Below, in pieces: positions 3,479-30,442 of a DNA stretch of 64,000 nt. The first letter of the stretch is position 1. Every line of letters starts with the position of its first letter. The notes beneath the pieces were generated by a model that was given only the letters and a program-made list of their open reading frames with translations, was not told the origin of the DNA and ran no database searches. Origin of the DNA: Oscillospiraceae bacterium (GTDB lineage: Bacteria; Bacillota; Clostridia; Oscillospirales; Acutalibacteraceae). The DNA lies in NCBI GenBank assembly GCA_902762875.1, contig CACWPS010000006.1, positions 1-64,000 on the forward strand, given 5' to 3'. A program made the translations under genes and the position numbers.

Positions 3479-3492
3479 AATCACTTACTATA

Positions 3493-3537
3493 AAATTCGC
3501 TCCCTGAAGTTTAGCTTACGAGAGCGAATTTTTTTAT
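3493..3537 (+). terminator. Terminator after yebC
   Basis: Stem AAATTCGCTC/GAGCGAATTT (3493-3502, 3522-3531) followed by TTTTTATTTT. Confidence 0.85.
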
Positions 3538-3543
3538 TTTCCC

Positions 3544-3570
3544 TGTTACCTTTTATCCTTTCCGTGCGTC
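3544..3570 (+). promoter_or_regulatory. Candidate ECF sigma (SigV/SigX-like) promoter
   Basis: TGTTAC (3544-3549) and CGTC (3567-3570) are 17 bp apart. The Bacillus ECF sigma factors X, W and V use TGAAAC/TGTAAC-type -35 and CGTC/CGTA -10 elements with 16-17-bp spacing. It stands 34 bp ahead of an operon that encodes its own ECF sigma factor, which supports autoregulation. This is a motif match only; no transcript start is known. Confidence 0.5.
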
Positions 3571-3603
3571 TTAAATATAGAAAAGCAAAACGGCGGTGCG
3601 GTT

Positions 3604-4998
3604 ATGGTATTCAGCAGTCTTCAGTTTATATTTATTTTTATTCCTATATTTTTCGCCTGTTACTACGCTGTTCCGAGCGGTTTAAAAAACAGCGTGCTGC
3701 TGATAGGCAGTCTCTGTTTTTACTTTATTGGCGCACTTCATAATCCCGAGCATTTTGCGATATTTTTAATAAGCATTATCCTTGACTACGCCGCTGCCCT
3801 AAAAATTGAAAGAACTGAAAAGCACAAAAAGCTCTTTTTGGTTGCAAGCGTTGCGTTTCACATCATAAGCCTTTCGGTATTCAAGTACTCGGGCTTTGTA
3901 ATCGGCGAAATCAGACGATTTGTGCCGAGCCTTGATTTTGCGGCAAATATCGTTCTTCCTATTGGAATTTCCTTTTACACCTTCCAAGGGCTTTCATATG
4001 TTATCGATGTTTACAGAGGTAAGGTTAAAGCGGAAAAAAGTCTGCTTGACTTTGCCGTTTACATAGCTATGTTTGAACAGCTTATAGCAGGACCTATAGT
4101 AACCTATAATCAGGTTGAAAAGGAGCTTCACTCAAGAAAAATTACAACCGCTGCGGTGCTTGACGGAATAGGCACATTTATTTTTGGCTTAGGGCTTAAG
4201 GTACTGCTTGCAAATCCTATCGGAAAGCTGTGGTCTCAGGTTTGCGCCATAGGCTTTGAAAGCATATCCACTCCCCTCGCCTGGTTGGCGATAGTAGCCT
4301 TTTCCTTTCAGATATATTTTGATTTTTTCGGTTATTCCCTAATGGCGGTAGGGCTCGGCAAAATGCTGGGCTTTAAATTACCCGAAAACTTTGACCACCC
4401 CTATTTAAGCCTTACTATGACCGAGTTCTGGCGGCGCTGGCACATAACCCTCGGCTCTTGGTTCAGGGAATATGTTTATATACCGCTTGGCGGAAACCGC
4501 AAGGGTAAAATTACCGAATTCAGGAATTTACTTATAGTATGGCTTCTCACCGGTATTTGGCACGGAGCAGGTTATAACTTCCTCCTTTGGGGAGCGGTGC
4601 TTTTTGTAATAATCGGTATCGAAAAACTTTTCCTTGGAAAATTTCTAAATAAGTATCCTTCTGTGGGACATATTTATATGGCATTGATTATCCCCGTTAC
4701 TTGGACGATATTTGCCGTGGAGGATTTGGGTCAGCTCGGGATATTTTTATCCCGTATGTTTCCCTTTTTCGGTCAGGGTGTATGGTCGGTTTTCAGGTTC
4801 GATTATCTTAAATACCTAAAGCTTTATTTTCCTTTTTTAATTGCGGGGGTTATTTTCTCAACAAAACTCCCCTATAAATTGCTAAAGCGCATTAAAAACC
4901 GCACTGTAATATGGGTGATACTCGCCGTTATATTCGCCGCAAGCGTTTACTGTATGTATAAGGGGCTTGACGACCCGTTTTTATATTTCAGATTTTAA
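3604..4998 (+). CDS. MBOAT-family O-acyltransferase (PatA/AlgI/DltB-like)
   Basis: 464 aa, about ten or eleven membrane helices. The MBOAT core is clear: a conserved block around RRWHITLGSWFREYVYIPLGG (about residues 278-298) and the catalytic histidine in LTGIWHGAGYN (about 318-328). Such proteins carry acyl groups across the membrane and hand them to a partner that O-acylates a cell-surface polymer: alginate (AlgI), peptidoglycan (PatA) or D-alanyl teichoic acid (DltB). The next gene, an SGNH hydrolase anchored outside the membrane, is the expected partner. The following sigma/RsiV-like pair suggests peptidoglycan as substrate; that is inference. No dltA, dltC or dltD is present. Confidence 0.87.
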   Translation: MVFSSLQFIFIFIPIFFACYYAVPSGLKNSVLLIGSLCFYFIGALHNPEHFAIFLISIILDYAAALKIERTEKHKKLFLVASVAFHIISLSVFKYSGFVIGEIRRFVPSLDFAANIVLPIGISFYTFQGLSYVIDVYRGKVKAEKSLLDFAVYIAMFEQLIAGPIVTYNQVEKELHSRKITTAAVLDGIGTFIFGLGLKVLLANPIGKLWSQVCAIGFESISTPLAWLAIVAFSFQIYFDFFGYSLMAVGLGKMLGFKLPENFDHPYLSLTMTEFWRRWHITLGSWFREYVYIPLGGNRKGKITEFRNLLIVWLLTGIWHGAGYNFLLWGAVLFVIIGIEKLFLGKFLNKYPSVGHIYMALIIPVTWTIFAVEDLGQLGIFLSRMFPFFGQGVWSVFRFDYLKYLKLYFPFLIAGVIFSTKLPYKLLKRIKNRTVIWVILAVIFAASVYCMYKGLDDPFLYFRF

Positions 4999-5010
4999 GG
5001 AGATTGTCTT

Positions 5011-5799
5011 ATGAAAAAGAAAAATATTATAACGCTTTTATCTCTTGGGGCTTTAATTATTGCCGTATTTGCGGTTGCTGTATTTAAAAAGCCTAAGCTA
5101 AAAGATACGCAGGTCTCATCTGCGCAGTCAGAACCAAGCAGTGCGGCAGAAACCTCTTCAGTCCCATCTGCCGAAGCTCTGCCATACGAAAGCGAACCCT
5201 CAAAGGAAGAAATCACCGATATTTCTATAAACGACTCCTTATTTATAGGCGATTCGAGAACTGTCGGTCTTATGGAATACGCCGGTCTTGCGGACGCAGA
5301 CTTTTTCTGCAATGTGGGAATGAGCGTTTACAACATCAATAAAAAGCCCGTTTCTGTTCCTAATGTCGGCAAGGTAACCTTTACGGAGCTTATTAACGAG
5401 AAAAAATACGGCAAAATTTATATAATGCTCGGAGTAAACGAAGTCGGTTATGAGACAAAGACCACCGTTTCCAAATATTCGGAATTGATTTCCCTTATAA
5501 TGGAAAAACAGCCCGACGCGACTGTGTTTATAGAGGCTAATCTTCATGTCTCAAAAACAAGATCAGACCGTGACAAAGCGGTAAACAACGCCGCGATTGA
5601 TAAGCTTAACGCCGAGCTTGAAAAGCTTGCAGACGGCAAAACAATTTTTTATCTTGATGCGAATACCGTATTTGATGATGGGACGGGAAACCTCTCTTCC
5701 GATAAAACGGAAGACGGAACGCATCTTTACGCTAAATATTACGCCGAGTGGGGCAGGTGGATTATAAGCCAAACCTCCTCACTTGTCGGGAAGGATTGA
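5011..5799 (+). CDS. Membrane-anchored SGNH/GDSL hydrolase (O-acetyltransferase partner, PatB-like role)
   Basis: 262 aa. One N-terminal membrane helix (residues 6-25) is followed by a Ser/Glu-rich linker (35-70), then an SGNH fold with the nucleophile motif GDSRT (Ser82), a GxN block in IYIMLGVNEVG, and the DxxH-type motif EDGTHL near residue 236. There is no lipobox, so it is anchored by an uncleaved helix facing outward. SGNH proteins beside MBOAT transporters usually transfer or remove acetyl groups on glycan hydroxyls. The stop codon overlaps the proposed TTG start of the sigma factor (TTGA), so translation is probably coupled. Confidence 0.82.
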   Translation: MKKKNIITLLSLGALIIAVFAVAVFKKPKLKDTQVSSAQSEPSSAAETSSVPSAEALPYESEPSKEEITDISINDSLFIGDSRTVGLMEYAGLADADFFCNVGMSVYNINKKPVSVPNVGKVTFTELINEKKYGKIYIMLGVNEVGYETKTTVSKYSELISLIMEKQPDATVFIEANLHVSKTRSDRDKAVNNAAIDKLNAELEKLADGKTIFYLDANTVFDDGTGNLSSDKTEDGTHLYAKYYAEWGRWIISQTSSLVGKD

Positions 5800-6293
5800 T
5801 TTTTACGAACAAGGAGCGCTTTTGCGAACAGATACGACTTTGCGAGAGGGCGATGTACTCTGTGGCTTTTTCGGTTTTGAAAAACGAGACCGATTCTGCA
5901 GAAGTACTCAGCGAAGCCATATACCGAGCTTATAAAAAGCTTGATACCCTCAAAAACGAAAAAGCCTTTAAGCCGTGGATTCTCAGAATCGTTCACAACA
6001 CGGCGGTTGAGGAAATCCGCAAAAATTCAAAGGTAATTGCTATGGAAGAAATCTCCGAACCGGTCTACTGTGGCTTCGAGCAAAAGCTCACCCAAAATGT
6101 AAGCTTAAAAAGTGCGGTTGACAGCCTTAAACAGCCCTACCGCACAGCGGTCATACTTTTCTATTACGAAAATCTTTCGGTCTTACAAATTGCACAAATA
6201 ACCGAAACAACCCCAGCAGCCGTTAAACAGCGGCTCTCAAGAGCGCGAAATATTCTCAAAGAGCTTTTGAAGGAGGATTTCAACAATGAATGA
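5796..6293 (+). CDS. ECF RNA polymerase sigma factor (SigV-like)
   Basis: About 165 aa. Region 2 includes YRAYKKLDTLKNEKAFKPWILRIVHNTAVEEIRK. Region 4 is an HTH with LKQPYRTAVILFYYENLSVLQIAQITETTPAAVKQRLSRAR. The start is uncertain: the frame is open from 5748, but TTG at 5796, overlapping the previous stop, gives a normal length; GGGAAGGA directly ahead is close. The start of the next gene overlaps its end by 8 bases. The RsiV-like partner downstream argues for the lysozyme/cell-wall-stress class typified by B. subtilis SigV. Confidence 0.85.
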   Translation: MIFTNKERFCEQIRLCERAMYSVAFSVLKNETDSAEVLSEAIYRAYKKLDTLKNEKAFKPWILRIVHNTAVEEIRKNSKVIAMEEISEPVYCGFEQKLTQNVSLKSAVDSLKQPYRTAVILFYYENLSVLQIAQITETTPAAVKQRLSRARNILKELLKEDFNNE

Positions 6294-7179
6294 TTTTGAT
6301 AAATACCTTAAAAGCAAAGCTAAAAGCGAATGCCCGGAAATTCCCGATTCTGTTAAAAACCTAATTGAAGAAACGCTTTCTAATCTTCCGATGCAAGGCG
6401 ACAAACCAAAAAAAATACGGGTATTGCCTCGCATTGCCTCAGCTGCCGCCTGTCTGATATTCGTAATGCTTTTTCTGCTCCCGAATATCAGCGTTGCCTA
6501 CGCCGAGGCGGTTGAAGAACTGCCGATTATCGGAAAAATAGTCAAGGTTGTAACCGTGAGAAATTATTTCTATTCCGACGATTATCACGAAATGGATATT
6601 GATGTGCCCGAGGTAAGCGGTGAAAACGGCGAAGCAGCAGACTATATCAACAAGGAGATAAGCGAGCTTACAGAAACGCTTGTAAATCAATTCTACAGCA
6701 ACCTTGAAGCTATAGGGGACGAGGGTCACAGCTCGGTTTATGTAGATTATGAAACGGTAATCAATACCGAAAAATGGTTCACCCTTAAAATCAGAGTTCA
6801 CGAGGCGGCGGGAAGCAGTAACACCTATTATAAATATTATCATATAAATAAGCTTAACGGTAACATTGTTAAGCTCGGCGATTTAGCAAAGGACGAGAGC
6901 TTTTATGATGTATTGGAAAAAGAAATAAAACGCCAGATGAAGGAACAAACAGAGCTTGACAGCAACAAGGTTTATTGGCTGGACGACAGCATAATCGGCA
7001 AGGATTTTGTCTCATTAGATTCCAAACACAATTTCTACCTTACAGAAAACGGCGATATGGTTATTGTATTTGATAAATATGAGGTAGCGCCCGGCTCAAT
7101 GGGAACTCCAGAATTCACAATAAGCAAGGATATTATCAAAGAGATTATAAAGCCTGAATTTAACAGTATTTTTTCATAG
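6286..7179 (+). CDS. RsiV-like anti-sigma factor with extracytoplasmic DUF3298 sensor domain
   Basis: 297 aa. A short cytoplasmic anti-sigma segment (1-45), one membrane helix (about 49-70, ending AYA), then an outer region with a DUF4179-like start (ELPIIGKIVKVVTVRNY) and a DUF3298/RsiV-type C-terminus: INKLNGNIVKLGDL and FDKYEVAPGSMGTPEF. In B. subtilis and C. difficile RsiV binds lysozyme directly and is then cleaved, releasing SigV, which induces peptidoglycan O-acetylation or deacetylation. Overlap with the sigma gene fits co-expression. Lysozyme as ligand is inferred from the family only. Confidence 0.82.
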   Translation: MNDFDKYLKSKAKSECPEIPDSVKNLIEETLSNLPMQGDKPKKIRVLPRIASAAACLIFVMLFLLPNISVAYAEAVEELPIIGKIVKVVTVRNYFYSDDYHEMDIDVPEVSGENGEAADYINKEISELTETLVNQFYSNLEAIGDEGHSSVYVDYETVINTEKWFTLKIRVHEAAGSSNTYYKYYHINKLNGNIVKLGDLAKDESFYDVLEKEIKRQMKEQTELDSNKVYWLDDSIIGKDFVSLDSKHNFYLTENGDMVIVFDKYEVAPGSMGTPEFTISKDIIKEIIKPEFNSIFS

Positions 7180-7186
7180 ACAAATT

Positions 7187-7224
7187 ACACGGCAGACGGA
7201 TTTGCTCCTCTGCCGTGTTTTTAC
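7187..7224 (+). terminator. Terminator of the acyltransferase/sigma operon
   Basis: Perfect 10-bp stem ACACGGCAGA/TCTGCCGTGT (7187-7196, 7209-7218) followed by TTTTACTTTT. It also separates this operon from the convergent aminotransferase gene. Confidence 0.88.
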
Positions 7225-8396: not shown

Positions 8397-8875
8397 ATAA
8401 AGAACTGCCCCCTGCCGTCGTCTTCCTCGCCTACCAATTCAACATCCATTTCCTTATAGCGGCGAAGAACAAAATGGGTAGTAGTTGAGGTTACGGAATC
8501 GATAGTTGCAAGCTCTCTTGAGACAAAGCGGGCAATATCCTGAAGTGTTTTTGCCTTTACAACCACATTAAGGTCATACACGCCCGACATAAGGTAGACC
8601 GACTCCACCTCATCGTATTTCATAATCTTTTCGGCAACCTCTTCAAAGCCAAGGCCTGCTTTTGGTACAACATTTAATTCTATTATCGCCGAAACATAGG
8701 GGTTTTCCACCTTCTGCCAGTCAATTATCGCCTTGTAGCCCTTAACAAGTCCGTCTTTTTCCAGCTGTTTAATCTCGTTCTCAACCGTTTTTTCGTCAGA
8801 GCCTAACATCACGGCGATATCCTCGGCTGTGTATTTCGCATTGCGGGCCAATAATTTAAGTATTTCGTATTTCAT
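8393..8875 (-). CDS. Lrp/AsnC family transcriptional regulator
   Basis: 160 aa from the ATG at 8875, which has AAAGGAGG at 8891-8884; the frame is open further upstream but that part lies in the T-box. N-terminal winged HTH (KYTAEDIAVMLGSDEKTVENEIKQLEKDGLVKGY) and C-terminal RAM ligand domain with VYLMSGVYDLNVVVKAKT. Lrp/AsnC proteins bind amino acids and often control the neighbouring amino-acid gene. Translation of the aminotransferase begins inside its stop (4-base overlap), so the two are co-translated. Confidence 0.88.
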   Translation of the reverse strand: MKYEILKLLARNAKYTAEDIAVMLGSDEKTVENEIKQLEKDGLVKGYKAIIDWQKVENPYVSAIIELNVVPKAGLGFEEVAEKIMKYDEVESVYLMSGVYDLNVVVKAKTLQDIARFVSRELATIDSVTSTTTHFVLRRYKEMDVELVGEEDDGRGQFFI

Positions 8876-8894
8876 ATGTATGTCCTCCTTTAAA

Positions 8895-9143
8895 TAATAA
8901 AGCCCCGAACGCCAAAATGACATTCGGGACGAATAAAATCCGTGTTACCACCCTAATTCGGAACAAATTCCGCACTCAACGGTACAAATATACCTTTGTC
9001 CTTTAACGGAGACCGCCGTCTGCCCTTTCGGGAGCCGCTTAAGGGTAGCTTCACCTATAGACCGCCGAAGATTCACACCAACCATCTTCTCTCTTAAAGC
9101 GCAGTCAAAAGACTACTTATCCCTTTCAATGCGTTTGTCTGTT
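8895..9143 (-). promoter_or_regulatory. T-box leader (specifier best read as CUA, leucine)
   Basis: Minus-strand RNA with all T-box landmarks: AGAGAGAAG and GGTTGGTG in the Stem I distal part, GTGAAG before the specifier, the T-box core AGGGTGGTAACACGG (around 8955-8940), and a terminator CCCGAA/TTCGGG (8929-8902) ending in CTTTATTATTT before the ribosome-binding site. Aligning the specifier loop with the Phe (GAAG-TTC) and Thr (GAAC-ACC) T-boxes of this window gives GAAG-CTA, so the codon is at 9048-9046. A one-base shift would read GCU (Ala). The UGGU of the T-box matches an ACCA tRNA end. Confidence 0.85.
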
Positions 9144-9149
9144 TTCTTA

Positions 9150-9178
9150 ATGATAAACCATTTATCCCGTTTTGTCAA
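9150..9178 (-). promoter_or_regulatory. Promoter of the T-box/Lrp/aminotransferase transcript
   Basis: Minus strand TTGACA (9178-9173), 17 bp, TATCAT (9155-9150). The same unusual TATCAT -10 is used by the thrS T-box promoter. Confidence 0.75.
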
Positions 9179-9204
9179 GCGGGAATTGTTTTATTGATAT
9201 TAAA

Positions 9205-9543
9205 CGGGACGATGTGGGCATCGTCCCCTACGAATTTAGATATTCGATATTAGATGTTAGATGTTAGAACGAGAAAAACTAAATTTGACATCGCAGGGCG
9301 GGGCTTGCACCCGCCGTCTAATATCTAATGTCTAACATCTGGTAGGGGAGGGTCTCTGTGCCCTCCCGAAAGTTTTTGCGGATTAACGGGAGGGCACAGA
9401 GGCCCTCCCCTACGACAGTTAATTGAAATTTCGTATAAATTTGCGTCCTCGACTGTCCGTTACCTTGCAAACGGGACGATTGGGCATCGCCCCCTACACA
9501 AGCTAATTGAGTATGCGTAGGGGATGATGCCCACATCATCCCG
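9205..9543. repeat. Cluster of REP/BIME-like hairpin units
   Basis: Five full ~27-nt units plus one degenerate one: 9205-9231(+), 9342-9368(-), 9387-9413(+), degenerate 9433-9459(-), 9472-9497(+), 9517-9543(-). Each, read in its own minus sense, starts GTAG followed by a GC-rich palindrome such as GGGACGATG/CATCGTCCC or GGGAGGGC/GCCCTCCC. Two tail-to-tail pairs (9387-9459 and 9472-9543) have a 19-nt AT-rich linker. This fills the gap between the T-box promoter and the next gene. A 73-codon open frame across it is only repeat sequence. Confidence 0.75.
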
Positions 9544-9550
9544 TAAAAGA

Positions 9551-10096
9551 CTATTTCAAATTATCATCGTAATGCGCACGGTCGCCGCCGATAAATTTAG
9601 GTCTTACCCTTGCCGCTAAAACGGTAGCCGCACCTATACGGTTGTTTTTAAGGCGAACGGGCACAGCCACCTTTTTAAGGTGCATACCTATCATTGTAAA
9701 GCCTATATCAAGCCCCCCGTCGGCACGGATTTCCTCAAGTGCAACAGGCTCCTTGAATGAATTGTACGCCGCAGTTGCAAAGGAGCCGCCCGCCTTAGGC
9801 TGTGGCACAACATTTACAATATCTGCATACGGGACTGCCGCCCGCTCGGTAATAATCGCACGGTTTAGATGCTCACAACACTGTGCGGCTAAAAACACGC
9901 TCTTTTCTTCTGCCGCTTTATAAATGCCCTCAAAAACCTCTTTTGCGGTATCGGGTGACGAATCCGTGCCTATACGAGAGCCCAAAATCTCGCTTGTGGA
10001 ACAGCCTACAACCAAAATCTGCCCCTTTTTGAGACCTGCTGTCTCTATAATTTCCAAAGCGGCGTTATATGCCTGCTCCTTTAAATTTTCGCTCAT
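9551..10096 (-). CDS. YwlG/UPF0340 family protein (TIGR01440)
   Basis: 181 aa, the normal length for this conserved Firmicutes family of unknown biochemical function. Recognised by the N-terminal ILVVGCSTSEILGSRIGTDSS, AAQCCEHLNRA, VNVVPQPKAGGSFA and DIGFTMIGMHLKKVAVPVR. Homologues often lie near serine hydroxymethyltransferase or ribose-5-phosphate isomerase B; here it stands alone between repeats and the divergent pheST transcript. No signal peptide or membrane segment. Confidence 0.88.
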   Translation of the reverse strand: MSENLKEQAYNAALEIIETAGLKKGQILVVGCSTSEILGSRIGTDSSPDTAKEVFEGIYKAAEEKSVFLAAQCCEHLNRAIITERAAVPYADIVNVVPQPKAGGSFATAAYNSFKEPVALEEIRADGGLDIGFTMIGMHLKKVAVPVRLKNNRIGAATVLAARVRPKFIGGDRAHYDDNLK

Positions 10097-10172
10097 AAAA
10101 ACACTTCCTAAAGCAATTTATCTATATTCTACCACTTTTGAGTCTATAATCAAACATTTTTCGCAAAAAATC

Positions 10173-10204
10173 TTGACTTTTTTTTGAGGTAATGATATTA
10201 TAAT
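10173..10204 (+). promoter_or_regulatory. Probable promoter of the pheST T-box transcript
   Basis: TTGACT (10173-10178) and TATAAT (10199-10204). The 20-bp spacing is longer than usual, so one of the elements may be misassigned. Confidence 0.45.
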
Positions 10205-10207
10205 CTA

Positions 10208-10462
10208 AAATGCGCTGATAAAGGAAAGTAGGCTTTAATCTTCTTTCAGAGAGTCCTTGCCGAGGCTGAAAGCGAGGATATGCAGGGTTTCTTCCGAAGT
10301 TCCCTTTTGAGCAGCGCCGCTGAACGAGTTTTCCTGTAGGCGGCGACGGTGGGCACCGTTACAGCCACGGGAGTGTTTGCTCTTTGAGCGAAAAAACGGG
10401 TGGTACCGCGGAGATTTTTAATGCTTCGTCCTGTTACATGGGACGGAGTTTATTTTTTTACG
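10208..10462 (+). promoter_or_regulatory. T-box leader of pheST (specifier UUC, phenylalanine)
   Basis: Contains AAAGGAAAGTAGG at the Stem I base, the specifier loop CCGAAG-TTC-CCTTTTGAG (Phe codon), the T-box core ACGGGTGGTACCGCGG near 10396-10411, and the terminator CTTCGTCC/GGGACGGAG with TTTATTTTTTT (about 10424-10460). Uncharged tRNA-Phe would stabilise the antiterminator. Confidence 0.93.
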
Positions 10463-10473
10463 GAGGTTATACT

Positions 10474-11493
10474 ATGAAAGAAACGCTTGAAAAAATCAGA
10501 GAAGCTGCCGAAAGTGCCCTTAAAGCGGCGGCAGACGAGAGCGAAATTGAAAATTTAAGGGTTAAATACTTAGGCAAAAAGGGGGAGCTTACCGCAGTTT
10601 TAAAGCAGATGGGCTCCCTCTCCCCCGAAGAAAGACCTGTTATGGGTCAGCTTGTAAATGAGGCTAAGCAAAAGCTTGAAACCCTTATCGCCGAAAAGAA
10701 GACCGATTTAAAGGCAAAGGCTACCGAAATTAAGCTTAAATCCGAGACTATCGATATTACAATGCCCGCAAAAGAGGTTAAATGCGGCGGACTTCACCCC
10801 TTAAACCATGTTGTAAACGATATGATTGACATTTTCCAGTCTATGGGCTTTGATGTTGTGGACGGCCCCGAGGTTGAAACCGACCACTACAACTTTGAAT
10901 GCCTGAATGTTCCCGCAGACCACCCCGCTCGTGATATGCAGGACACATTTTACCTTGCAGAAAATCTGCTTTTAAGAACCCAGACCTCTGCCGCACAGAT
11001 TAGAACAATGGAAAACCGCAAGCCCCCTATCCGTGTTATCTGCCCAGGGCGTGTTTACAGAGCAGACGAGGTTGACGCAACCCATTCCCCTGTTTTCCAC
11101 CAGCTTGAGGGTCTTGTGGTAGATAAGGGCATTACAATGTGCGACCTTAAGGGCGTGCTTGAGCAGTTTGCCCACGAAATCTACGGTAGTGACACAAAGG
11201 TGCGCTTCCGCCCCTCCTTCTTCCCCTTTACAGAGCCCAGCGTTGAGGTTGATGTTTCCTGTAGCGAGTGCGGTGGCAAGGGCTGCAGAGTATGCAAGGG
11301 CGCAGGCTGGATTGAGATTTTGGGTGCAGGTATGGTACACCCGAATGTGCTTCGCTCCTGCGGAATTGACCCCGAGGAGTATTCGGGCTTTGCCTTCGGA
11401 ATAGGCATTGACCGCATCACCACCACCCGTTACAAGATAAGCGATATCCGTCTTCTTTTCGAGAATGACAAGCGCTTTCTTGAGCAGTTTTAA
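10474..11493 (+). CDS. pheS: Phenylalanyl-tRNA synthetase alpha subunit
   Basis: 339 aa from the ATG at 10474 preceded by ACGGAGG; the open frame upstream lies in the T-box. N-terminal coiled coil (1-90), then the class II catalytic core: motif 1 around [16 protein letters not shown], motif 2 [27 protein letters not shown], motif 3 [25 protein letters not shown] insertion has four cysteines, as in some bacterial PheS. It forms an alpha2beta2 enzyme with PheT, encoded 13 bp downstream. Confidence 0.97.
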
Positions 11494-11506
11494 GGAGGGC
11501 TAACAA

Positions 11507-13897
11507 ATGAAGATTTCACTTAATCATTTAAGAAATTATGTTGATATAAATGTATCCCCCGAGGAGCTTTGCGACCGTATGGTAATGGCGGGCTTCGAGG
11601 TTGAGGATATTGAAAAGCAGGGCGAAAACATCAAAAATGTTGTGGCCGCAAGGATTCTTAAAATCACACCCCACGAAAATTCCGACCATTTGCAAATTTG
11701 CCAAATGGATGTGGGAGCAGGCGAGCCTGTGCAAATTGTAACAGGTGCACAGAATATTCACGAAGGTGATTATGTTCCAGCCGCACTGGATGACAGCTAC
11801 TTACCTAACGGAGCACACATTGTTGCGGGCAAGCTCCGTGGTGTAGAGTCAAACGGTATGCTCTGCTCGGGGGGCGAATTATGCCTTACCGAGGCCGATT
11901 ATGAGGGCGCAGAGGTAAATGGCATACTCATTTTAAAGGGCGAGCCGAAGCCGGGTACCGATATGCGTGAGGTTTTAGGCTTAAATGATTACATTATCGA
12001 CTTTAAAATCACCGCAAACCGCCCCGACTGCAACTGCTTCTTAGGGGTTGCTAAGGAAATTTCGGTGGTACTGGGCACAAAATTCACCGCTCCCAAGCCC
12101 GAATATAAAACCGTAGGCGGGAATATTTCCGATTATATTTATATTGAGGTCAGAAACTTTGACCTTTGCCCCCGTTACATCGGCAGAGTGGTTAAAAACC
12201 TTAGAATCAAGGAATCCCCCGACTGGATAAAAAAGGCTATAACCGCCGCAGGTATGAGACCTATTAACAACATAGTTGATATTACAAACTTTGTTATGTT
12301 GGAAACAGGTCAGCCTATGCACGCCTTTAACTACAATGATATAAGGGGTCATCAAATAATCGTCCGCAATGCCGAGAACGGCGAGAGCATCACCACCATT
12401 GACGGCACAGAACATAACCTCAACTCCGATATGCTTGTAATCGCCGACGGCGAGCAGCCCTCCTGCCTTGCGGGAATTATGGGCGGTAAGGAATCGGAGA
12501 TTGAGAGCGACACCACCGATTTGTTCCTTGAATCCGCAAAGTTCCGCCGTGACAATATCCGCCATACGGGACGCACCTTAGGTATACGCACCGAGGCCAG
12601 CGGCCGTTATGAGCGTGGGGTTGACATTATGAATGTTGAGTATGCCTCCGAGCGGGCACTCCAGCTTATTTATGAGCTTGACGCAGGCGACATTATCGAC
12701 GGCGCTATCGACCTTAACAACGGTCTGCCTGAGGAAAGAGTTATCAATGTCACCACCGATAAAATTATGAGCCTTATCGGTGTTGATGTTCCCGATGAAA
12801 AGATTATCTCTATTTTAAACAGCTTAGGATTGCCCACAGTTGCTAACGGCAAGGAATTAACGGTAAGAGTCCCCTCTATCCGTGACGATATTGAGGACCG
12901 TGCCGACCTTGCGGAAGAGGTTATGCGTATTTACGGCTATGACCACATTGTAGGTAAGCCTATGCGTGGCGAGGTTGTTAGGGGTAAAAAACTGCCCGAG
13001 CGTATTAAGACCGATAAGATTAAGGACTTCCTTATAAGCGCAGGCGCAAGGGAAATTGCCACCTACTCATTTATCAGCTCCTCGGCGCTTGATACCCTAT
13101 TGCTCGACGAAAAGGACGAAAGAAGAAATCAGATTAAGATAATCAACCCCTTAGGTGATGAGTACTCCACAATGCGCACACAGCTTACCACAAGTATGCT
13201 TACAGTGCTTGCCACCAACATCAACCGCAAGATTACAAACGCAAGATTCTTTGAGGCATCAAAGCGCTTTGTTCCGAAATCCTTACCGATTACCGAACAG
13301 CCCGAGGAGCTCCCCACCCTCTCCATAGGAATTTACGGCAAGGATGAAGATTTCTTCACATTAAAGGGCATAATAGAGGGTGTAATGAAGCTTTGCGGAG
13401 CACATACACAGTACGAGAGAAGTGCCGAGCCCTATCTCCACCCGGGCCGTCAGGCGCTAGTTAAGGCAAACAATACCCCCGCCGCAGTTTTCGGCGAGGT
13501 TCACCCGACGGTTTCCGCCGCTTACGGAATCGACTGCCGTGTATATGTTGCCGAAATTAAGCTTGATGTTCTGCTTAATATAAACAAGCGCAAGACCCTT
13601 TACAAGCCCCTGCCTAAGTTCCCCGCCGTTGAGCGAGACTTTGCAATGCTCTGTGATGCCGATTTACCTGTAGGCGCACTTGAAAAGGCTATTACCAAGG
13701 GTGCGGGCAGACTGCTTGAGAGAATAGAGCTGTTTGATGTATATTCAGGCTCCCAGATTCCCGAGGGCAAAAAGAGCGTAGCCTACAGCGTATGGCTCCG
13801 TTCGGCGGACAGCACCCTTACAGATAAAGAAATCGAGACAGTAAGTGCCTCGATAATAAGTAATCTTGAAAAAACCGGTGCCGAGCTTAGAAAATAA
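11507..13897 (+). CDS. pheT: Phenylalanyl-tRNA synthetase beta subunit
   Basis: 796 aa, full length. N-terminal EMAP/tRNA-binding domain (about 40-150, HENSDHLQICQMDVG), B1/B3/B4 domain with TANRPDCNCFLGVAKE, the editing region with NNIVDITNFVMLETGQPMHAF, B5, a class II-like core and the C-terminal anticodon-binding FDX-ACB domain (FPAVERDFAMLCD to the end). AGGAGG ribosome-binding site. Co-transcribed with pheS under the T-box. Confidence 0.97.
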   Translation: MKISLNHLRNYVDINVSPEELCDRMVMAGFEVEDIEKQGENIKNVVAARILKITPHENSDHLQICQMDVGAGEPVQIVTGAQNIHEGDYVPAALDDSYLPNGAHIVAGKLRGVESNGMLCSGGELCLTEADYEGAEVNGILILKGEPKPGTDMREVLGLNDYIIDFKITANRPDCNCFLGVAKEISVVLGTKFTAPKPEYKTVGGNISDYIYIEVRNFDLCPRYIGRVVKNLRIKESPDWIKKAITAAGMRPINNIVDITNFVMLETGQPMHAFNYNDIRGHQIIVRNAENGESITTIDGTEHNLNSDMLVIADGEQPSCLAGIMGGKESEIESDTTDLFLESAKFRRDNIRHTGRTLGIRTEASGRYERGVDIMNVEYASERALQLIYELDAGDIIDGAIDLNNGLPEERVINVTTDKIMSLIGVDVPDEKIISILNSLGLPTVANGKELTVRVPSIRDDIEDRADLAEEVMRIYGYDHIVGKPMRGEVVRGKKLPERIKTDKIKDFLISAGAREIATYSFISSSALDTLLLDEKDERRNQIKIINPLGDEYSTMRTQLTTSMLTVLATNINRKITNARFFEASKRFVPKSLPITEQPEELPTLSIGIYGKDEDFFTLKGIIEGVMKLCGAHTQYERSAEPYLHPGRQALVKANNTPAAVFGEVHPTVSAAYGIDCRVYVAEIKLDVLLNINKRKTLYKPLPKFPAVERDFAMLCDADLPVGALEKAITKGAGRLLERIELFDVYSGSQIPEGKKSVAYSVWLRSADSTLTDKEIETVSASIISNLEKTGAELRK

Positions 13898-30186: not shown

Positions 30187-30442
30187 ATCAAGCTCGATAC
30201 TAAAGCGTTGAAAAGGACAGTAGCTTTTTAAAACGCCCTTTAAAGAGAGTATGTGCCGTCGGCTGGAAGCCATGCAGGGGTATAGAAAGTGAACACCGCC
30301 TTTGAGCGCCGTGGGTAGCAACACGGCCGTTTTATCTGCGTTAAGGATAGTAAAGCGCCGTTTTTTTAACGGAACACGGGTGGAACCGCGGAGTATTTTG
30401 TTTAGTGCTTCGTCCCTATTTTAGGGACGGAGTTTATTTTTT
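30187..30442 (+). promoter_or_regulatory. T-box leader of thrS (specifier ACC, threonine)
   Basis: AAAAGGACAGTAGC at the Stem I base, the AGAGAG motif, specifier loop GTGAAC-ACC-GCCTTTGAG (Thr codon at about 30293-30295), the core ACGGGTGGAACCGCGG near 30376-30391, and a terminator CGTCCCTA/TAGGGACG plus TTTATTTTTT ahead of thrS. Confidence 0.95.

Follow-up and report, generated by a model that had tools for sequence, protein, structure and literature searches.

The closest described relatives of the locus analyzed here are two envelope-stress operons with an RsiV-type sensor, sigV-rsiV-oatA of Bacillus subtilis and the csfV operon of Clostridioides difficile, and a group of acyl-transfer systems in which an MBOAT protein works with a separate partner, such as PatA/PatB. 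In B. subtilis, RsiV is described as being cut by signal peptidase at Ala64-Gln65-Ala66, and the A66W substitution blocks signal peptidase (PMC6066255). In the account of PatA given in PMC12148441, the C-terminal FXYXXF is an acyl-shuttle motif whose tyrosine carries acetyl to the SGNH partner. Here we describe an operon in which these two kinds of system are joined. It lies in a 64,000-nucleotide stretch from the genome of an uncultured Oscillospiraceae bacterium of the Clostridia (positions 1-64000 of contig C6, hereafter the window; the genome comprises 1.69 Mb in 22 contigs) and consists of four tightly packed genes on the + strand, encoding an MBOAT protein, an SGNH enzyme, an extracytoplasmic function (ECF) sigma factor and an RsiV-like anti-sigma factor. 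From promoter to terminator it spans 3544-7218. The kind of switch is itself known; what is new is that a SigV/RsiV-like switch here has another effector and an altered promoter motif. The operon is likely a dedicated envelope-acylation switch, and perhaps one that senses lysozyme.

Operon structure and protein families

The structure of the operon, the family relationships of its products, the kept catalytic and shuttle residues, the promoter motif and the recurrent pairing are established from sequence. A prior reading of the window made from its letters alone (the sequence-only reading) had described one four-gene operon closed by a terminator and headed by its own ECF-type promoter, TGTTAC-N17-CGTC. 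All four genes, the closing hairpin and the promoter were confirmed (Table 1). The start of the sigma gene overlaps the SGNH stop, and the start of the RsiV-like gene overlaps the end of the sigma gene; identical overlaps are found in L029, L031, L033 and L035 (L and G codes denote our loci and genomes). Within its own genome, the window MBOAT is the sole match to the MBOAT family and the RsiV-like protein the sole match to DUF3298.

Table 1. Features of the operon and its boundaries in the window
Feature	Position	Strand	Basis
T-run hairpin beyond the yebC-like gene that precedes the operon; sets the operon apart from that gene	~3492-3532	+	RNA fold -15 kcal/mol, z -4.4
ECF-type promoter: -35 TGTTAC (3544-3549), 17 bp spacer, -10 CGTC (3567-3570)	3544-3570	+	Pattern match
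MBOAT acyl-group transfer protein, 464 aa, WHG histidine	3604-4998	+	Pfam MBOAT, E 2.3e-24
Codons of the C-terminal FLYFRF (fits the FXYXXF acyl-shuttle motif)	4978-4995	+	Sequence
SGNH enzyme, membrane-anchored, 262 aa, hydrophobic segment 6-24, S82/G103/N143/D235/H238	5011-5799	+	Pfam Lipase_GDSL_2, E 2e-13; hydropathy
ECF sigma factor, SigV-like, 165 aa, TTG start, changed region 4.2 helix	5796-6293	+	Pfam sigma-70 region 2, E 3.2e-11, and region 4, E 1.3e-12; NCBIfam
RsiV-like anti-sigma factor, 297 aa: N-terminal part, hydrophobic segment 50-68, AxA 73-75, DUF3298 199-281	6286-7179	+	Pfam DUF3298, E 4.3e-18; NCBIfam RsiV; hydropathy
Codons of Ala73-Glu74-Ala75, opposite Ala64-Gln65-Ala66 of B. 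subtilis RsiV	6502-6510	+	Alignment
Terminator hairpin with T-run, closing the operon	~7187-7218	+	RNA fold -20.8 kcal/mol, z -7.4

Judged by its sequence features, the window pair is a complete acyl-transfer pair of the MBOAT-SGNH kind. The MBOAT protein has the catalytic histidine, and FXYXXF stands at the C-terminal end of 14 of the 15 MBOAT proteins examined, the exception being encoded about 6 kb away from sigV-rsiV in L076. In the SGNH enzyme, S82, G103, N143, D235 and H238 are invariant across all 20 aligned proteins (Ser-Asp-His being S82, D235 and H238), and hydropathy indicates a single hydrophobic segment, at the N-terminus. MBOAT and SGNH are separate proteins, unlike the AT3-SGNH fusion of OatA, and the domains, the shuttle motif and the catalytic residues bear out the proposal that such a pair stands in place of OatA. 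The sole AT3 match in the genome lies in a 378-aa open frame on a different contig. For the window MBOAT, NCBIfam listed a single family, DltB (148.6 bits, E 2.7e-43, below the cut-off of 375). DltB and DltD likewise combine an MBOAT protein with an SGNH partner, but FXYXXF is located at the end of the MBOAT protein in the window and on the separate DltX in the Dlt system as described in PMC12148441. Because of this difference and the missed cut-off, we assigned the pair to the MBOAT-SGNH kind and rejected a teichoic-acid (DltB) reading.

The two regulatory proteins are related to SigV and RsiV. The sigma factor reaches 106 bits against the NCBIfam SigV model, short of the cut-off of 190, and is related only. 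The anti-sigma factor is here named RsiV-like because its score of 237.9 bits (E 1.4e-70) is 12 bits under the NCBIfam RsiV cut-off of 250. Its best match in the PDB is the RsiV-lysozyme structure 5JEN (E 9e-38, residues 73-288). The membrane segment is followed by A73-E-A75, a predicted signal-peptidase site aligned to A64-Q-A66 of B. subtilis RsiV, and by LPIIGKIVK, aligned to IPVIGKIVK in the region of the protective helix (functions as described in PMC6066255).

Recurrence of the operon and a second association

The sequence-only reading had proposed a genome search for the four-gene order, and we found that the order recurs both in the genus and in another family. Complete or cut by contig ends, it is present in L028 (identical to L032 of G077 and counted once), L029, L030, L031, L033 (G062) and L035 (G026), and also in G093, which belongs to another family, and in L083 (G199). 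Since the order recurs in other genomes with different neighbors, the four-gene unit is more than chance. MBOAT and SGNH genes run up to the contig end in L036, the second locus of G026, which ends within the SGNH gene with sigV-rsiV beyond the contig, and in L034 (G036), where no sigma gene is found in the following 254 bp. An RsiV-type match is present in 7 of 60 relatives with the own genome counted (one match is weak and one lies at a contig end), and a match to the SGNH protein in 8 of 61 genomes of the genus, again with the own genome counted.

Across a sample of the class, the RsiV model has matches in 138 of 391 genomes, and in 18 of these the score exceeds the cut-off. We took the 40 best-scoring RsiV-like stretches, with the own place and one fragment excluded; one G380 stretch holds two places. 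Eight of these best 40 loci, from four family codes, have an SGNH gene in the sigV-rsiV unit (L071, L073, L083, L085, L086, L087, L090 and L092; L085 and L086 are near copies, and L071 begins with SGNH). Two of the eight also have an MBOAT gene, namely L083 and L073, from another family, with an MBOAT protein 72% identical to that of the window. Around the other 32 loci, no same-strand neighbor within 250 bp was seen by eye to recur in more than two loci once near-identical genomes were set aside; L063 and L076 share a phosphoesterase-like gene downstream of sigV-rsiV, and L060 and L069 an EamA-like gene upstream of it.

A second arrangement, SGNH-DUF4358-sigV-rsiV-MBOAT-DHHW, was found in L037, L038, L039 and L040 (Pfam names for L037, the others by eye). 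L085, L086, L087 and L092 have SGNH-DUF4358-sigV-rsiV, and L090 has SGNH-sigV-rsiV. At E up to 1e-20, a profile of the SGNH proteins has matches in 77 of the 391 genomes of the class sample. All nine top-ranking places are linked to RsiV, though the profile was itself built from proteins of that kind. Among the next 20 places, an MBOAT gene is nearby in 17 and a sigV or rsiV match in none. Four of these 20 (L102, L110, L111 and L116) have the order SGNH-DUF4358-MBOAT-DHHW, and therefore sigV-rsiV of the second lineage sits between DUF4358 and MBOAT. It is also evident that MBOAT-SGNH pairs are common in Clostridia, so the claim of the sequence-only reading that machines of this two-protein kind are chiefly a Gram-negative matter does not hold there; PatA1/PatB1 and CcsH/CcsI have moreover been published in Gram-positives.

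In a tree of 39 RsiV proteins, the linked ones fall in two places, and a single clade is rejected by the approximately unbiased (AU) test (P = 6e-42). The SGNH tree is likewise in two parts (P = 7e-27, AU test). Compared with one old association followed by many losses, two separate associations are the simplest reading of these sequences. The pairing occurs in two separate lineages and therefore looks like an inducible armor circuit of new composition.

The small DUF4358 protein, which has a lipoprotein-like start, accompanies many SGNH genes with or without sigV-rsiV (e.g., L037:7084-7539 and L040:7568-8047). In two SGNH relatives (L108:6214-6780 and L115:6046-6603), GNSM replaces the GDSR of the catalytic serine block; a DUF4358 gene adjoins each of them, no MBOAT was found in the stretch, and they are possibly altered enzymes.

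Promoter motif and sigma factor helix

The motif TGTYACNTTTN13[CA]RTC is located 59-84 bp upstream of the first gene at all 10 window-type operon heads (the window, L028, L029, L030, L031, L033, L036, L073, L083 and L071), in line with the ECF-type promoter first read in the window. The second-type operons have a distinct motif, AACTTTT-N11-14-RTCTA, at 9 of 9 heads, and neither motif is found at 20 control loci with MBOAT/SGNH or SGNH and no visible sigV. The second motif is also present at 7 of 30 unlinked sigV heads, L063 and L084 having no sigma match and hence leaving 30 of the 32 unlinked loci in the comparison. Mean majority identity is 0.79 within the 27 bp promoter, 0.74 over the following 20 bp and 0.49 over the 60 bp upstream.

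These counts come from the third pair of patterns used, and since the patterns were widened and fitted with the heads in view, their independence is limited to the controls. The first pattern matched every window-type head except L083 (9 of 10) and, among the second-type heads, L092 alone (1 of 9). A second, looser pattern picked up all window-type heads but that of the window itself (9 of 10) and all second-type heads but L087 (8 of 9); it also matched 7 of the 30 sigV heads without linkage and a single control, L117 (1 of 20). In the control stretches, distances were taken from the starts of tblastn matches, not from gene starts; L108 and L115 are controls without MBOAT, and L034 counts as a control solely because the remaining 254 bp of its contig show no sigma gene.

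Genome-wide, the own genome, G026 and G062 each have one match to the pattern TGTYACNTTTN{13,14}CRTC, in every case at such an operon. There are two matches in G077, six in G093 and three in G178 (one each at the operon), one in G245, and none in G199, G036 and G076; L083 of G199 has AGTC, which this pattern disallows. Uniqueness of the motif in a genome is a weak argument because a reversed control pattern matches 0-4 times per genome.

The sigma factors differ in step with these motifs. In region 4.2, position 151 is Arg in all 10 window-type proteins and Leu in 34 of 39 others, position 148 is Ser in 9 of 10 and Tyr in 36 of 39 others, and position 146 is Gln in 9 of 10 and Arg in 35 of 39 others; the window protein itself has Arg146 and Gln145. 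L076, the sister of L083 in the RsiV tree, is the sole other protein with the window-type region 4.2 helix. The usual ECF -35 box of B. subtilis is of the AAAC type, which was found here in the second lineage and at the 7 of 30 unlinked sigV heads. Taken together, these comparisons suggest that the -35-recognition helix and the -35 box of the window type changed together, and that the window sigma factor reads the promoter at 3544.

It is highly improbable that sigV-rsiV landed by chance beside an acyltransferase pair over which it has no control. Such an accident would agree with the 32 of 40 sigV-rsiV loci in the class sample that lack an SGNH neighbor, and with the several genomes in which the motif count is no higher than that of the reversed control. 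However, the motif precedes MBOAT in the nine window-type heads that begin with MBOAT, the own genome has no second motif match before sigV, and both the two separate associations and the change in -35 box and sigma helix speak for a functional unit.

Proposed switch, its ligand and its acceptor

We propose, at about even chances, that the operon is a self-contained and self-amplifying stress switch leading from a lysozyme-type muramidase through sigma release to acylation of cell-wall glycan, probably peptidoglycan. At rest, the sigma factor would be held at the membrane by the RsiV-like protein. A muramidase, most likely lysozyme, would bind the outer domain of the latter, signal peptidase would cleave at the AxA site, and a site-2 protease would complete the release. 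The freed sigma factor would then fire the promoter at 3544, the sole motif match in the own genome, so that all four genes rise together. MBOAT would load an acyl group (probably acetyl, from acetyl-CoA) onto the C-terminal tyrosine of FLYFRF and pass it to SGNH, which would place it on cell-wall glycan, most likely peptidoglycan, and thereby make the wall poorer to cut for lysozyme. The ligand, the proteolysis by signal peptidase and site-2 protease, acetyl as the acyl group and peptidoglycan as the acceptor are steps that we infer.

Several observations weigh against this proposal, the fitting of the promoter patterns noted above among them. In the own genome, the promoter motif is no commoner than its reversed control (one match against two). 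An MBOAT gene was not seen in the fetched stretch of six of the eight linked loci (L071, L085, L086, L087, L090 and L092), and no peptidoglycan gene was found among the scanned neighbors of seven of eight loci, L083 being the other. Among the 16 lysozyme contacts given in Table 2 of PMC5014341 and mapped by alignment to B. subtilis RsiV, eight are changed in the window protein (E88, S93, K137, E163, T165, Q166, A167 and Y261). Y261, one of three tested lysozyme-binding residues, is lost in every one of the nine window-type proteins that extend to it, Ser (as in the window protein), Ala or Val standing in its place. A search of the PDB with a 20-sequence SGNH profile at E up to 0.1 returned 23 sequences, among which no chain is named PatB, OatA or PatB1 (names, not folds, were compared), and the best matches are esterase- or lysophospholipase-like.

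The changed contacts bear on the ligand. The other eight of the 16 are identical in the window protein (H139, S168, S169, T171, D225, Y255, E256 and G260), compared with 64 of 185 positions (35%) identical to B. subtilis elsewhere in the outer domain, and P259 is kept as well. A missing lysozyme-binding surface would have told against the sequence-only reading; so far the surface appears partly kept. The RsiV-type sensor of that reading is upheld by the homology to 5JEN and by these contacts, and is qualified by the missed NCBIfam cut-off and the replaced Y261. In B. subtilis, lysozyme binding is reported to persist in the Y261A protein while activation is poorer (PMC5014341). It is possible, if rather doubtful, that the RsiV-like domain senses a ligand other than host lysozyme, e.g., a muramidase of bacterial origin, a fragment of peptidoglycan or lysozyme of another class. 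The loss of Y261 and the eight differing contacts are consistent with this, as is the second lineage, in which S169 is Ser in 0 of 7 proteins and P259 is Pro in 3 of 7 and Cys or Tyr in 4 of 7; its ligand may therefore differ. Some DUF4163/DUF3298 proteins are also described as not binding lysozyme. On the other hand, most window-type proteins retain the loops S168-S169-x-T171 and Y255-E256-xx-P259-G260 (exceptions being Thr for S169 in L071 and Ser for T171 in L029 and L030), and of the three residues in contact with the active site of lysozyme, the window protein retains S169 and Y255. Unlinked RsiV proteins in the same comparison keep 2-11 of the 16 contacts. The underlying alignment (A2) excluded L092 and L070 (stop in the frame) as well as L063, L065, L074, L079, L080, L081, L086, L088, L089 and L031, of which L031, L079, L080 and L088 were added back for the contact table.

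The esterase- and lysophospholipase-like structures nearest to SGNH raise the question of direction, that is, whether SGNH might be an esterase that removes acyl groups, in which case the operon would trim instead of add. We regard this as quite improbable, since in the window, as in the remaining window-type loci with an MBOAT gene, the SGNH gene lies beside one that encodes the shuttle motif, and MBOAT is nearby in 17 of 20 relatives without linked RsiV.

A less decided matter is the acceptor. The same sigma/RsiV switch and acyl machine could act on another envelope polymer (secondary cell-wall polysaccharide, a teichoic-type polymer or exopolysaccharide) and hinder lysozyme indirectly, a rather unlikely alternative to peptidoglycan that is compatible with a different ligand. 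The published Gram-positive MBOAT pairs point this way, being described as acting on secondary wall polysaccharide (PatA1/PatB1) or probably cellulose (CcsH/CcsI) (PMC12148441, PMC7710045), and so do the absence, from the SGNH profile matches, of any chain named as a peptidoglycan O-acetyltransferase, the DHHW protein of the second-lineage module, a component found also in CcsH/CcsI, and a sugar-transferase gene at 201-1559 of the window. Against it, the flanks of the operon copies hold no consistent exopolysaccharide or other polysaccharide-synthesis genes (by eye, and by Pfam for ten proteins of eight loci), a peptidoglycan transglycosylase gene adjoins the L083 operon, and the known SigV effectors act on peptidoglycan or teichoic acid, as far as the cited accounts describe them. 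Consistent linkage to exopolysaccharide genes was the other finding that would have told against the sequence-only reading; on the flanking genes looked at so far, we rejected an exopolysaccharide locus as the general rule. The analogy with the SigV effectors OatA and PdaV and the transglycosylase beside L083 speak for peptidoglycan as the acceptor, and the lack of a peptidoglycan gene among the scanned neighbors of the other seven loci speaks against it.

A broader view is offered tentatively, as a possibility short of an even chance. RsiV-type receptors may be a general plug-in sensor for envelope acylation; Clostridia would have joined sigV-rsiV to MBOAT/SGNH at least two times, in the window lineage a separate sigma/-35 code would then have arisen, shielding that lineage from ordinary SigV, and different muramidases or other wall-attacking ligands might be sensed in the two lineages. 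If the proposed switch is right, some Clostridia have an inducible wall armor in which OatA is replaced by a two-protein machine and whose receptor maybe senses lysozyme. The widespread MBOAT-SGNH family would gain a testable function, the sigma factor and its promoter would be a natural case of a code changing on both sides together, and the RsiV variants would form a set for asking what else the receptor fold senses.

Further observations on the window and the operon copies

The operon is flanked by a yebC-like gene on one side and an opposite-strand aminotransferase-like gene on the other, both named by eye. A sigma-70 promoter scan found 8 sites, compared with 8.6 in shuffles, and a search of the own genome for the PdaC family gave no match. 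The window also contains three T-box leaders above the Rfam gathering score, at 8922-9138 (-), 10206-10436 (+) and 30199-30420 (+).

L035 and L036, both of G026, have two different window-type SGNH/MBOAT sequences, each cut by a contig end, which could be two operon copies or a mixed assembly. Genes for an alpha-N-acetylglucosaminidase and an alpha-rhamnosidase adjoin operon copies (L031:992-3070 and L035:1215-3197) and would fit a glycan-eating, perhaps host-associated life. In L085 (3365-4714, -) and L086 (4268-5605, +), sigma factor and RsiV-type anti-sigma factor are encoded in one open frame of 450 and 446 aa, respectively, an odd fusion; by Pfam, the L085 frame contains sigma-70 regions 2 and 4, DUF4179 (below cut-off), PdaC and DUF3298.

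By eye, L029 has a recombinase-like gene upstream (683-2676) and phage-like genes downstream (8639-12882). A scan of viral contigs with the window RsiV-like protein gave no match, and a scan with the alignment gave one 35-residue match (L134:25-129), an RsiV-like end at the start of a contig whose other frames resemble phage tail and wall-lysis genes (by eye). This match bears neither for nor against phage carriage because the gene is cut by the contig end.

Comparison with known systems

No paper linking RsiV to an MBOAT-SGNH pair was found in the open-licence literature; subscription papers mostly lie outside this scope, and ECF classifications may list the neighborhood. Published MBOAT-SGNH systems resemble the effector half of the operon. 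PatA/PatB, as described in PMC12148441, share with it an MBOAT protein with C-terminal FXYXXF and a separate SGNH protein, probably with one N-terminal helix anchor, but are Gram-negative and accompanied by the Ape1 esterase; that account describes no sigma/RsiV switch, and the window SGNH profile matches no PatB chain. PatA1/PatB1 and CcsH/CcsI (PMC12148441, PMC7710045) are Gram-positive pairs of an MBOAT protein and a transferase like the window pair, yet their acceptor is secondary wall polysaccharide or, by proposal, cellulose; CcsI belongs to the DHHW type, and these accounts describe no RsiV switch.

The regulatory half is shared with two operons. The C. difficile csfV operon (pdaV, prsA2, csfV, rsiV and lbpA; PMC5014341, PMC9044953) also belongs to the Clostridia, has an RsiV sensor and names its effector gene, pdaV, first; its effector is a deacetylase, however, and neither MBOAT nor SGNH is named for it in those accounts. 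The other is the lysozyme switch sigV-rsiV-oatA of B. subtilis as described in PMC5014341 and PMC6066255, which the window operon resembles in its SigV-like sigma factor, its RsiV-type anti-sigma factor with AxA and DUF3298, its self-regulated operon and its acyltransferase effector. The window operon departs from it in having, as effector, separate MBOAT and SGNH proteins encoded before the sigma gene instead of the fused OatA. It differs further in its -35 box, which is TGTYAC instead of the AAAC type, and in its replaced Y261.

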